A program made the translations under genes and the position numbers. A stretch of DNA of 64,000 bases from Peptoanaerobacter stomatis (GTDB lineage: Bacteria; Bacillota; Clostridia; Peptostreptococcales; Filifactoraceae), in NCBI RefSeq assembly GCF_000238095.2, contig NZ_JH815225.1:917140-981139 (forward strand), in the 5' to 3' direction. Below the pieces are notes generated by a model that had not been told where the DNA came from, did no database searches, and saw only the letters and a program-made list of their open reading frames with translations. This document shows, piece by piece, positions 2,996 to 55,014 of the stretch. Every line of letters begins with the position of its first letter. Within the stretch, counting starts at the first letter, position 1.

Positions 2996-3757
2996 CTATT
3001 CTACTTTGATTCTAAAAAATTCCTGCGTTGATATTTCACCTATTTCGGCTTTTTCTCCTAAAAATGAAAGATTTAAAACAGTATTGCAACCTTTTAATTC
3101 GGTATCTTCCAAAGATACACCCTTAGCTCTCTCATGTAACTCGTCCATATAACTTTCTTAAGCTTTATCTTGAATAGATGAAATCTTACTATTTTCTTTT
3201 TTATTCTTCTTCATATTCCTAATCATAACTGCCATTTGATAGCCTTCCGGATCTCTTTCTAAAATCATTTTTTCTTCTTCAGGTGTAAGTTTTTCGCCTT
3301 TTGCTAATTTCTATTTTGATTTTAAAATCTTTTCTTCTTCTTTAAAATACAACTCCCATACTGCACCTTGCTGCTTTGCTACTTTCATATTATGTTCCAA
3401 TGAGTGCATATTTAAATAGTACTCTCTCAATTCCTCTGCTTTTTTATCTTCTTCTGACAATTCTATTCTCTTTCCATTTACCATTATATATCCTCTTGAA
3501 ACCGCTTTGCTACCATAGCTGAATCTTGAAAAATGCACTACAAAGGTATTATCAAACTTCCCTTTTTCAATGCCCAAGATATCTTCCCCAGATCTTGCCG
3601 ACATATCATTATATAATAGTTTTTTCCCTTCGTCCTATATTTCAACAGTATCTGTTTTAAATGAATTCTTATCAGTTTCTTTTGAATAAGTTTTTAAATT
3701 TTTAGTATTATATATCGTATTTATAGAAGATTTATAATTTAAATCATTTATTTTCAT
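2996..3757 (-). pseudogene. Unknown 253-codon ORF with three in-frame stops
   Basis: From ATG at 3757, behind a good AAAGGGAGA site, one reading frame runs to the TAG at 2996-2998 and is interrupted at codon 41 (TAG, 3635-3637), codon 149 (TAG, 3311-3313) and codon 200 (TAA, 3158-3160), with no frameshift. The translation between stops looks genuinely coding: charged, balanced, with segments such as FVVHFSRFSYGSKAVSRGYI, LSEEDKKAEELREYYL and LTPEEEKMILERDPEGYQMA. I do not recognise the family. The longest stop-free piece is 3311-3604 (97 codons). TAG is the ordinary stop of pyrB and pyrK in this window, so recoding is unlikely; this reads as a recently decayed gene. Confidence 0.65.
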
Positions 3758-4192
3758 ATATAATCTCCCTTTAAATCATAGTAAGACTGACTTTAATAAT
3801 TTCATTATAACAATGACCATAACAAAGCCATTCTCTAATTCATATTTTTGAAAGAATGAAGTATTTATCAAATTACATAGCCTAATCCGTATCATTTATG
3901 AGTTTTTTCATAGAGATTAATTCTCCATACTTGCTCAACAGTATTTATATATTAAGAATATGCTTATACTGATTGTATTATGCGTTGCGTATATAGGAAT
4001 ATTCTTTTTAAAATTCAAGTAGGAGTTTTGCCTTCTTATACCAAAATAAATTATCCATAAGTAATATTTTATAATTTTATGTTTACAATATAAGTGCAAC
4101 ACTTAATAAAATATATTTGACATTTATATTGATTTTAACAATACATATTAATATAAAAGATTATACAACTATATTGAAAATAATACAATATT

Positions 4193-4222
4193 ATAAAACC
4201 ACCTAACTTCTTAAGTGGCTTT
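4193..4222. terminator. Weak hairpin, possible terminator
   Basis: CCACCTAA pairs with TTAAGTGG around a four-base loop; on the minus strand it is followed by TTTTATAATATT. No gene upstream on either strand accounts for it, so its role is unclear. Confidence 0.3.
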
Positions 4223-4348
4223 ATAAAAAATATAAGAACTTATAAGTTTTTTATTTAGTATTTCACTTATATTTTAAACCTATATTATATACTACATACA
4301 AAAAATATTTGAATTTTTTAAACTCTTTAAAATATAATATTTTATATA

Positions 4349-4377
4349 TTGACATATGTTCTATGTTGTGATAGAAT
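4349..4377 (+). promoter_or_regulatory. Sigma-70 promoter of the pyr operon
   Basis: TTGACA (4349-4354), a 17-bp spacer and TAGAAT (4372-4377). It is the best promoter match in the upstream region and leaves a leader of about 200 nt before pyrC. Confidence 0.7.
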
Positions 4378-4585
4378 ATCGAAGATTTAAGCAGAATTAT
4401 TTTTATAAGTATATTTTTTTATGTCTTGCTCTGTTATAATCATAGCAAGAATACGATAATATTCCTGTATTTTGTATTAAAACATTTTTGACTTTTAAAT
4501 ACAAAACATTATTTTAATATGAATTTTATTACAAAATATTTTTATAAACTAATTTATATATATTCTTCAAGAAAGGAGCTTATAA

Positions 4586-5878
4586 ATGTCTACTTTATTA
4601 AAAAATGGTAATGTTTTTACTCCAAACGGCTTTAAAAAGACGAATATCTTAATTTCTAATTCCAAGGTGTCTTTAATTTCTACTTTAGATGATACTTCTT
4701 TTGATAATTCTATAGATTGCAACGGTTTATATATTGTGCCAGGTTTTGCGGATGTGCATGTACATTTTCGTGAGCCCGGCTTTTTTTATAAAGAAAGCAT
4801 AGCCACAGGTTCACTTGCAGCTGCTCGTGGAGGATACACACAAGTTTGCACTATGCCTAATGTAAACCCTGCACCTGCAGATCTTAAATCATTAGATGTT
4901 CAACTCGAAATTATAAAAAATGACTCTGTTGTACACATAACTCCATACGCAACTATAACTTCTCGTGGAGATGGCAGGAGTACATTATCAAAAATGGCTG
5001 ATATGGCAGATTATGTCGTAGGATATTCTGATGACGGTAAAGGTGTACAAACAGGAGAACTAATGGAAGAAGCAATGATAATGGCAAAATCACTCGATAA
5101 AATAATAGTTGCACATTGTGAGGATGAAAGCTTGTTAGACGGAGGATATATCCATAAAGGTATATATGCAGAAAATCATAACCACAAAGGTATATCTTCT
5201 GAGAGTGAATGGGTTCAAGTAGCAAGAGATGTGGAGCTTGCAAAAAAAACAGGTTGTAAATATCACGTATGCCACATATCCACAAAAGAAACAGTGGACA
5301 TAATAAGGCGTGCAAAAGCGAAAAATGTAGACGTAACTTGTGAAACAGCTCCTCACTATCTGATATTGTGTGATGAAGATTTGAAGGAAGAAGGTCGTTT
5401 CAAGATGAATCCTCCTTTACGTTCAAAAGAAGATAGAGCAGCACTTATAAAAGGTATACAAGACGGTACAATAGATATGATTGCAACAGACCATGCACCT
5501 CATTCACAAGATGAAAAATCTCGCGGCTTACAAAAAAGTCCATTCGGTATAGTAGGACTTGAAACAGCCTTCTCACTCTTATACACTCATCTTGTAAAAA
5601 AAGATATAATAAGCCTTGAAAAACTTATAGAGCTCATGTGCATAAATCCACGAAAGAGATTTCCATTAACAGGCTCTTTATATATAGAAAATGATACACC
5701 TGCAGATATAACTGTACTTGATCTTAGCAAAAAATATAAAATAGACTCTAAAAATTTCTTATCAAAAGGAAAAGCCACTCCATTTGATGGAGAATATGTA
5801 ATCGGAGATATATTATATACTTTTGTAGACGGAAATATGGTTTATGATTACAAAAATCTGCCAAATTACCAAAAATAA
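4586..5878 (+). CDS. pyrC: Dihydroorotase
   Basis: 430 residues, class I dihydroorotase length. It cyclises N-carbamoyl-L-aspartate to L-dihydroorotate, third step of UMP synthesis. The metal-binding HVHFREPG is near residue 60, followed by TMPNVNPAP, AHCEDESLLDGG, TCETAPHYL and the late ATDHAPHS, all family signatures of the binuclear amidohydrolase barrel. A strong AGAAAGGAGC site precedes ATG. It is the first gene of the operon here; pyrK follows after 60 bp. Confidence 0.96.
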   Translation: MSTLLKNGNVFTPNGFKKTNILISNSKVSLISTLDDTSFDNSIDCNGLYIVPGFADVHVHFREPGFFYKESIATGSLAAARGGYTQVCTMPNVNPAPADLKSLDVQLEIIKNDSVVHITPYATITSRGDGRSTLSKMADMADYVVGYSDDGKGVQTGELMEEAMIMAKSLDKIIVAHCEDESLLDGGYIHKGIYAENHNHKGISSESEWVQVARDVELAKKTGCKYHVCHISTKETVDIIRRAKAKNVDVTCETAPHYLILCDEDLKEEGRFKMNPPLRSKEDRAALIKGIQDGTIDMIATDHAPHSQDEKSRGLQKSPFGIVGLETAFSLLYTHLVKKDIISLEKLIELMCINPRKRFPLTGSLYIENDTPADITVLDLSKKYKIDSKNFLSKGKATPFDGEYVIGDILYTFVDGNMVYDYKNLPNYQK

Positions 5879-5938
5879 TTTTCCAAAAATCTATTTATAC
5901 TAAACTTCTGAAACAATATTTAATTTTAGGAGAATCAA

Positions 5939-6667
5939 ATGAAATGTGAAAAATTTAAAATTTTAGAAAATAAAAAAATTGCAAAGGATGTATTTCTTCT
6001 TACGCTTAGAGGAAATACTGATGAAATAAAAAATCCAGGACAATTTGCAAACATATCAATATCATCATTTTACTTGCGTAGACCTATATCCATATGCGAC
6101 TTTGAAAAAGATACTCTCAAATTAATATATAAAGTTGTAGGTGAAGGTACACTTGCTCTTTCGCAAAAAAAGCCTGAACACTATCTTGATATATTACTCC
6201 CTTTAGGCAATGGGTTTGATATAGATAAAACCACAAAAAATACAGTATTAATAGGTGGAGGTGTAGGCGTTCCTCCACTTATTAACCTTGCAAAAAATAT
6301 GATAAAAATTGGTAAAACACCTAAAGTAGTAATAGGTTTCAATACAAAAGAAGAAATATTTGCCGTAGATATGTTTGAAAATCTTGGAATACATCCTATT
6401 GTTTCAACTGTTGACGGTTCTTATGGAGTTCACGGTTTCGTAACAGATGCTCTTAAAAGTATAGATTATGATTATCTATGTACCTGCGGACCTGAACCTA
6501 TGTTAAAAGCTCTCAGCAATCTTGATGTAGACGGTCAATTCAGTTTTGAAGCGAGAATGGCATGTGGATTCGGAGGATGTATGGGATGTTCTCATGAAAC
6601 AAAATCAGGCTATAAAAGAATATGTAAAGAAGGTCCTATACTTTTCAAGGAGGAGATAAAATGGTAG
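5939..6667 (+). CDS. pyrK: Dihydroorotate dehydrogenase B, electron transfer subunit
   Basis: 242 residues. PyrK carries FAD and a [2Fe-2S] cluster and passes electrons from PyrD to NAD+. Visible features: the FAD-binding RRPISICD near residue 52, the GGGVGVPPL nucleotide loop about residues 101-109, and a C-terminal cysteine cluster (ACGFGGCMGC followed by a later C in KRICKEGP) for the 2Fe-2S centre. It overlaps pyrD by 7 bp, which implies coupled translation of the two subunits. AGGAGA precedes the ATG. Confidence 0.95.
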   Translation: MKCEKFKILENKKIAKDVFLLTLRGNTDEIKNPGQFANISISSFYLRRPISICDFEKDTLKLIYKVVGEGTLALSQKKPEHYLDILLPLGNGFDIDKTTKNTVLIGGGVGVPPLINLAKNMIKIGKTPKVVIGFNTKEEIFAVDMFENLGIHPIVSTVDGSYGVHGFVTDALKSIDYDYLCTCGPEPMLKALSNLDVDGQFSFEARMACGFGGCMGCSHETKSGYKRICKEGPILFKEEIKW

Positions 6668-19404: not shown

Positions 19405-20238
19405 TCAATCCATATATTTATAAAAAAATGTTTTATCCATAAGCAAGGCACTTTCTTTAGGAAAATCTTTAATAATTCTGTTTACACATCTCTTGCAAAA
19501 CTTGTAGTTTTCACTTTCATTTTGTGCCAATACATTTTTATATCCCCATATATGTGTAAAATTATCTTGATTTCCTATAGCCTTTGGAAATTCTATCAAA
19601 TAATCTATATCTATATCTTTTTTCTTTGCACACATGGATAAAAGCCTTTGTTCTGCAAAAACCATATAACATAGTTTGTCATCGCTTTTGGCTGAATTTT
19701 TCATAAAATTTATAGCTTCATCACAATAATAATTCTTAAATGCTTCGTCTTGTATGTATAAAAAAGCCGTATTTGAAGGCAAAACTTCCCAGTCAAATTC
19801 ATCATCAAATGCGTAGTCACGCCTCATATTAAAATAATATTTGTCTTTATAAGTATTGGATATTATGGGTTCACTATGTATAGCTGCTATTTTTTTATCA
19901 GACAGCTCGTCTTCCATATTATTCCATACTATCATATCCAAATCTATCATTGCTATAGGAGCATTTTGAGATTTTAAAGCAAATATTTTTGCACCTGCCC
20001 AAAACATCTCATAATCTATATCTTCTTCTTTTAATAATTCTATATCATTCCATATATATTCTAAAAAATTGTCTTTTATAAATTTTAAAGCACATTTATC
20101 TAATACAAGTTTTATACTACCGCCATTTTTCCGCCATTGAAGCGCAGATAATATCATAGTCAATATTTGATAGTCCTGCATATAAAACTCCTGATTATAA
20201 AATGCAGGTTTACTGCATATACAATGAAAAGCATTCAT
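19405..20238 (-). CDS. Glycosyltransferase-like protein (DUF6734-like)
   Basis: 277 residues from ATG 20238, which has GGAGGG 6 bp upstream; the frame extends further up without a ribosome site. It resembles the uncharacterised DUF6734-type proteins from memory; not verified. The stretch APIAMIDLDMIVWNN looks like the DxD-bearing strand of a GT-A fold, followed by an SNTAFLYI segment and a late FTHIWGY histidine. No signal peptide or membrane helix. It starts 25 bp after the tyrosine-rich repeat gene and the two are probably co-translated, which makes that protein a candidate acceptor. Function unproven. Confidence 0.5.
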   Translation of the reverse strand: MNAFHCICSKPAFYNQEFYMQDYQILTMILSALQWRKNGGSIKLVLDKCALKFIKDNFLEYIWNDIELLKEEDIDYEMFWAGAKIFALKSQNAPIAMIDLDMIVWNNMEDELSDKKIAAIHSEPIISNTYKDKYYFNMRRDYAFDDEFDWEVLPSNTAFLYIQDEAFKNYYCDEAINFMKNSAKSDDKLCYMVFAEQRLLSMCAKKKDIDIDYLIEFPKAIGNQDNFTHIWGYKNVLAQNESENYKFCKRCVNRIIKDFPKESALLMDKTFFYKYMD

Positions 20239-20263: not shown

Positions 20264-20851
20264 CTATATAAGCTCCAATCCGTATCCCATGACAAAAAAA
20301 TTCTGTCTTATATCACAAGAAATGTATTGATACTCATTTTTATATATATTTCTCCGCTTATCTTGATATATTCCCAAATTTACAAAAGGGGATACATTAT
20401 TGTAGGTACAGACGTAAAAGCTATTATATAAACTGTACGCATTTGCAAATGAACCGTATGAACCATAAGAATTGTACGAATTATATGAAGTATAATATGA
20501 ATTATATGAATTGTAAGAGTTATATGAGCTGTATGAGTTATAACTGTTATATGAGTTATACGAATTATAACTACCATACGAAAAATAACTGTTATAACTG
20601 CCGTTAATATCATATTCTTGTATATAATCATAGCTGTTTACAAAAATATCGTTTATATATCTATGTTTCATCTTATATATTCTATCTATGAAACTGCTGC
20701 TGTATCTCGGTTTATTTATATAATTATGTTTAAAATATATTTTATTGAAAACAGAATCTGTCATTTTTATATAACAATGCTTATTTTTGAAATCTGTATA
20801 GACTTTTTTTAAATGCTCTTTAAATTTACTGCTATGCACTGAAGTATACAT
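20264..20851 (-). CDS. Tyrosine-rich Ser-Tyr-Asn repeat protein
   Basis: 195 residues from ATG 20851; an ATG 6 bp earlier abuts the AAAGGTGA site, so the second ATG has better spacing. I recognise no family. The N-terminal 80 residues are basic and tyrosine/lysine-rich (KPRYSSSFIDRIYKMKHRY). Residues about 85-135 are a nearly perfect run of three-residue units, S-Y-N with occasional G, F, T or S in place of N, about sixteen SY pairs. The C-terminal 60 residues are non-repetitive. There is no signal peptide and no membrane segment. Its DNA is a 9-bp-periodic array. The next gene looks like a glycosyltransferase and the repeat offers many hydroxyl residues, so a modified structural or secreted polypeptide is possible. 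Confidence 0.75.
   Translation of the reverse strand: MYTSVHSSKFKEHLKKVYTDFKNKHCYIKMTDSVFNKIYFKHNYINKPRYSSSFIDRIYKMKHRYINDIFVNSYDYIQEYDINGSYNSYFSYGSYNSYNSYNSYNSYSSYNSYNSYNSYYTSYNSYNSYGSYGSFANAYSLYNSFYVCTYNNVSPFVNLGIYQDKRRNIYKNEYQYISCDIRQNFFVMGYGLELI
20447..20599 (-). repeat. 9-bp tandem array coding Ser-Tyr-Asn units
   Basis: On the minus strand units of the type AA[TC]TC[AT]TA[TC] recur every 9 bp, with minor synonymous changes. Arrays of this kind expand and contract in frame by slippage. Confidence 0.8.
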
Positions 20852-54940: not shown

Positions 54941-54958
54941 TTTCATTCTCCAATTTAT

Positions 54959-55014
54959 AAAGATTATTTTTTATTATATAATTTATAAAGATTATTTTTT
55001 ATTATATAATTTTC
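54959..55014. repeat. 28-bp tandem duplication at 3' end of nadD
   Basis: AAAGATTATTTTTTATTATA occurs at 54959 and again at 54987, exact period 28 bp. Copy one encodes the end of the conserved NadD sequence; copy two shifts frame and creates the final residues and stop. Confidence 0.8.

Follow-up and report, generated by a model that had tools for sequence, protein, structure and literature searches.

Recurrent pairing of DUF6734, a family of predicted GT8-like glycosyltransferases, with variable proteins that share a C-terminal GYG heptapeptide

We analyzed a stretch of 64,000 nucleotides from Peptoanaerobacter stomatis (the window), in which two adjacent genes encode a tyrosine- and serine-rich repeat protein, P0001, and a DUF6734 protein, P0002 (Table 1). 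Each gene is present as a single copy in the P. stomatis genome, and the pair lies between an upstream gene that we take to be rsmI-like and a downstream gene that we take to encode a Crp/Fnr-like regulator, both named by eye from the sequence. The spacing of 25 bp given in an earlier note on this DNA proved exact, as the DUF6734 gene starts at 20238, 25 nt past the stop of the repeat gene. Both genes lie on the minus strand, a point on which the earlier note was silent.

Table 1. Features of the repeat protein-DUF6734 locus of P. stomatis (positions in the window)
Feature	Position	Strand	Evidence
Repeat protein P0001 (197 aa), the proposed partner or substrate of P0002	20264..20857	minus	ORF and orthologues in relatives
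(Ser-Tyr-Asn/Gly)n segment, codons 87-136	20450..20599	minus	Shuffle test and codon variety
Conserved tail GYGLELI, C-terminal heptapeptide of P0001, proposed recognition tag	20267..20287	minus	Partner alignment and codon variety
DUF6734 protein P0002 (277 aa), a predicted GT-A glycosyltransferase of GT8-like type	19405..20238	minus	Pfam, AlphaFold, Foldseek, invariant residues

The earlier note had described a three-residue periodicity over about 50 residues with roughly 16 Ser-Tyr (SY) pairs, in a protein otherwise rich in Tyr and Lys. Residues 87 to 136 of P0001 read SYNSYFSYGSYNSYNSYNSYNSYSSYNSYNSYNSYYTSYNSYNSYGSYGS, and 17 SY pairs were counted in the protein, exceeding all of 20,000 shuffled versions (mean, 5.6; maximum, 15), while (S[FY]x)n runs extended to 12 units, compared with at most 4 in the shuffles. 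The periodicity and the abundance of Tyr were thus borne out (37 of the 197 residues are Tyr, 30 Ser, and 25 Asn), while the Lys content turned out to be only moderate (14 residues). The Ser codons of the repeat are mixed (8 TCA, 4 AGT, 3 TCG, 2 TCT, and 1 AGC), as are those for Tyr and Asn, and a tandem repeat finder detected only a weak 9/27-bp periodicity in the segment, with 71 to 78% matches. Since synonymous codons are mixed, the repeat is held at the protein level, and a fresh tandem duplication of DNA was ruled out as its origin. Two further repeats were noted in the window: a 102-bp tandem array of 5.5 copies at positions 1 to 558, for which the minus-strand translation resembles a WG-repeat protein (IDKKGREIIELKYDDVYGFEEGLAAVQKDGKWGF), and a perfect, A+T-rich 28-bp tandem repeat of 2.2 copies at positions 54952 to 55012. 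A search against Rfam gave no match in the window.

P0002 matches Pfam family DUF6734 (PF20508) over residues 15 to 261 (E = 1.3e-14; 54.7 bits versus a gathering cut-off of 27), and the same search yielded no GT8 match, the only other hit being a sub-threshold one to DUF7577. An AlphaFold model of P0002, computed with 92 sequences, reached a pLDDT of 96 and a pTM of 0.92. When this model was searched with Foldseek, the best matches were glycogenin (E = 3.8e-6, probability 1.00), UGGT, and PaToxG, followed lower down by LARGE1 and a GT8 protein, with TM-scores of only 0.34 to 0.47; at the sequence level, there was no match in the PDB and no solved structure was close. The earlier note had recognized in this gene a GT-A-type transferase with a DLD motif and had suggested examining a structural model for the GT-A fold. 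That fold was recovered by Foldseek, though at TM-scores below 0.5, and the DLD motif (D99-L-D101) is a DxD motif invariant in 92 relatives, together with H121, E123, N156, E196-Q197-R198, and the residues H229, W231, G232, and K234 of an HxWGxK motif. P0002 is predicted to be a remote GT8-like GT-A glycosyltransferase.

In Criibacterium bergeronii CCRI-22567 and [Eubacterium] yurii ATCC 43714, the two genes likewise follow rsmI as direct neighbours, with their order unchanged. Genome contigs, when scanned, yielded 80 DUF6734 loci, and other searches raised the number of distinct DUF6734 ORFs to 96; immediately preceding 81 of these is an ORF with a GYG[LIV]x[LI][IV] terminus, which in three cases carries a short extension. 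A check of 11 loci lacking a linked tail found a tail-ended protein encoded elsewhere in every one of the genomes; in one clade the pair is unlinked, and the tail gene is usually found in front of a gene resembling a U32-type peptidase. DUF6734 without a tail was seen in G037 and G054, and a viral contig (L097) adds two fragments that could not be judged. Across the loci, no third gene was conserved beside the pair beyond lineage-specific synteny.

Among 391 sampled genomes of the class, DUF6734 was present in 20. When all 391 were scanned with a DNA pattern encoding the tail and an ensuing stop codon, the pattern occurred in all 20 DUF6734-positive genomes versus 11 of the 371 negatives (Fisher p ~5e-26, a nominal value because the genomes are related). 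The latter 11 matches look like chance: nine sit at the ends of open frames no longer than 26 codons, a 58-codon frame finishes in TGG instead of a stop, and a 102-codon frame has no Ser repeat; a very short partner peptide could conceivably be among them. DUF6734 is therefore paired with a tail protein, and far from homologues lacking a repeat neighbour in all relatives, as the earlier note had envisaged for the opposing case, the two-gene pairing recurs widely. Its question whether SYN-repeat genes recur beside this transferase received a divided answer, since the pairing is widespread while SYN is one body type among many, the tail being what stays constant.

Individual loci showed further arrangements. 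Two relatives (L005/L014 and L006/L015) carry DUF6734 without a tail, next to a gene for an RCC1-type repeat protein and near a second glycosyltransferase-like gene. At L159 (G800), an ORF resembling an IS30-family transposase interrupts the DUF6734 gene (3462-5175), and the partner upstream of it (5191-6240) ends in GYGLELIDAR. A divergent DUF6734 relative at L160 (G736; 3858-4742) lies amid genes resembling a contractile-injection-system or phage-tail cluster. Searches beyond the genome contigs returned one DUF6734 relative on a plasmid of Hymenobacter (Bacteroidota) and one fragmentary relative in IMG/VR; the plasmid search gave no relative of the repeat protein, and the phage search gave no relative. 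The Hymenobacter gene directly follows one for a Cys-rich peptide of 64 aa that has a double-glycine-type leader and no GYG tail (L158, 5628-5822); it also follows a gene whose annotation is vitamin K epoxide reductase. Such a setting, a double-glycine-leader peptide with a vitamin K epoxide reductase, is common for peptide-modifying enzymes.

The constant part of the partner proteins is a C-terminal GYG[LI]x[LI][IV] and not the SYN repeat. When 69 partners were aligned, the G, Y, and G of the tail were the sole invariant columns; the search pattern itself contained GYG, so this perfect invariance is partly by construction, yet real variants must be rare, because a GYG tail, either at the locus or at another site of its genome, accompanies all but four of the 96 DUF6734 loci. 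The codons of the tail vary freely among synonyms across the 81 loci, and the constraint therefore acts on the protein. The final residues GYGLELI are identical in P. stomatis, [Eubacterium] yurii ATCC 43714, and Criibacterium bergeronii CCRI-22567, while the repeat bodies of the three differ (SYN, GSF/GSY, and mixed). At tail position 5, which is either an acid or His/Asn, covariation signals with enzyme columns were present and were inseparable from phylogeny.

Partner bodies, by comparison, vary between SYN, TSYL, GSF, and, in one clade, SGSGSG, with sizes down to 23 aa. Most are enriched in Ser followed by Phe, Tyr, or Trp, as Ser-aromatic pairs numbered 786 versus 205 aromatic-Ser pairs in the 69 proteins. 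Because Ser precedes the aromatics and one clade has SGSGSG, Ser is the residue common to the repeat types. Ser and Thr were both missing from the 20 residues before the tail in 3 of the 69. About 10 partners have no Ser repeats, including 23-aa Cellulosilyticum peptides such as MAFSSEVKEVPTSNVGGYGLELI. At the N terminus, the partners show several types of region that differ between lineages and look unrelated to one another. The partners are usually 100 to 330 aa long and non-secreted by inspection; only a few have a hydrophobic stretch that is possibly a signal or membrane segment, for which reason a cytoplasmic location appears likely. A (Y/F-E)n stretch of the YEYEYEY kind was also observed next to the Ser repeats in 20 of the 69 (e.g., L126, L131, and L161). 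Pfam and NCBIfam searches of the 69 partners gave only scattered or compositional matches; a match of P0001 to HxsA4 in NCBIfam (21.6 bits versus a cut-off of 55) was rejected as compositional, and so were matches of G036 and G045 to P0001, which are frames of unrelated DNA repeats.

At locus L023, the two genes share a reading frame on either side of a stop codon; with this TGA translated as Gly, a tethered chain of tail, linker, and enzyme resulted, which was modeled with AlphaFold (77 sequences, 11 with the tail). The block of residues 41 to 50, which holds GINLI of the tail, averaged a pLDDT of 68, while residues 1 to 38 and 50 to 60, comprising the repeat and the linker, were below 50. 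The model modestly supports the idea that the tail docks on the enzyme, and the value of 68 may partly reflect conservation.

We therefore propose, with slightly better than even confidence, a dedicated enzyme-substrate pair in which a tail-recognizing DUF6734 protein O-glycosylates its partner, most likely on the Ser residues of the repeat. The enzyme would be a cytoplasmic, metal-dependent GT8-like glycosyltransferase that recognizes a single partner protein through the C-terminal heptapeptide GYG[LI]x[LI][IV]. With the partner held by its tail, the enzyme would O-glycosylate hydroxyl residues in the flexible body that precedes the tail, and the acceptors would most likely be Ser of S-[FYW] or S-G units (Ser-Tyr-Asn in P. 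stomatis). Glycosylation as such, Ser as the acceptor, the identity of the sugar, the cytoplasmic site, and the biological role are inferred, and the proposal has against it the roughly 10 partners that lack a Ser repeat, some of 23 aa, the 3 partners with neither Ser nor Thr in the 20 residues before the tail, the low TM-scores, and the absence of a tail in G037 and G054. Cross-linking by the neighbour, which the earlier note had also considered, received no support.

Alternatively, the tail itself could be the acceptor, with DUF6734 glycosylating the invariant Tyr of GYG and the Ser-rich body having a separate role, for instance as a scaffold or as the carrier of a longer glycan. Glycogenin and PaToxG, both among the best fold matches, are Tyr-glycosylating enzymes, glycogenin acting on its own Tyr, and the tail Tyr is kept even in the repeat-less 23-aa partners; since the Y belonged to the search pattern, the resemblance in fold is distant and tells little about the acceptor residue, and the Ser enrichment of most partners would need another explanation, we hold this to be rather unlikely. 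Less probable still is that the partner is no substrate at all and acts as a scaffold, activator, or targeting subunit while DUF6734 glycosylates something else: one partner per enzyme, a constant docking tail, and variable bodies would suit a subunit as well, as would the distinct N-terminal domains and few Ser residues of some partners, but a subunit is not expected to vary to this degree, to be hydroxyl-rich in most lineages, or to shrink to 23 aa. Low-complexity ORFs are indeed common and the weak matches of P0001 are compositional only, but that a low-complexity structural protein lies beside an unrelated glycosyltransferase by chance is effectively excluded, because linkage holds at 81 of 96 ORFs, unlinked cases still co-occur, and 20 of 20 positive genomes stand against chance-level matches in 371 negatives.

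Several known systems resemble the proposed enzyme-substrate pair. Glycogenin, the best Foldseek match, and the GT8 enzymes share with P0002 the DxD motif, and the C-terminal H-x-W-G-x-K of P0002 resembles the GT8 motif, which is H-x-x-G-x-x-K-P-W; they differ in that TM-scores were about 0.4 to 0.47 and in that glycogenin modifies itself, while a separate partner is proposed for DUF6734. In glycocins, such as sublancin (with SunS) and enterocin F4-9, a small dedicated glycosyltransferase gene adjoins the gene of its ribosomal peptide substrate (PMC6405829, PMC8620827). The Hymenobacter gene after a double-glycine-leader peptide is a further likeness to these, whereas the DUF6734 pair would use a C-terminal tail as its recognition element, and its partners usually have the 100 to 330 aa given above and are non-secreted by inspection; a double-glycine leader, exporter, and protease were absent at the pair in the window, and none was conserved beside the pair across loci. 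Serine-rich repeat adhesins with GtfA/GtfB likewise place Ser-rich repeats beside a protein O-glycosyltransferase, but the DUF6734 pair has no signal peptide, LPXTG anchor, or accessory Sec genes beside it, and the enzyme belongs to another family. His-Xaa-Ser (HxsA) systems share the arrangement of a three-residue repeat protein beside a modifying enzyme, and no radical SAM enzyme of the kind found there lay beside the pair in the stretch examined. A PADLOC search for defence systems gave no match.

The earlier note knew of no described two-gene system of this form, and neither the tail nor the pair was found in Pfam, NCBIfam, or searchable papers. Pfam lists the function of DUF6734, the family of P0002, as unknown, and the tail partner appeared in no family description found; searches of the literature with DUF6734 and with the tail sequences returned nothing among searchable papers, most subscription journals being outside them. 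Dedicated glycosyltransferase-substrate pairs are already known from glycocins and serine-rich repeat adhesins, and the new part is a C-terminal tag with hypervariable cargo. In its broader form, which we put forward tentatively and with somewhat less than even confidence, a portable GYG[LI]x[LI][IV] tag would direct a GT8-like enzyme to any hydroxyl-rich chain upstream of it, giving cytoplasmic glycosylation of hypervariable cargo in Clostridia and in one or more further lineages of the phylum.

For the uncharacterized Pfam family DUF6734, these data name a partner that can be tested and a candidate recognition motif of seven residues, in a pair that is found in common gut and oral Clostridia, including Butyricicoccus, Agathobaculum, and [Eubacterium] yurii. 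If the tail does direct glycosylation, it would constitute a compact, portable tag for bacterial protein glycosylation.
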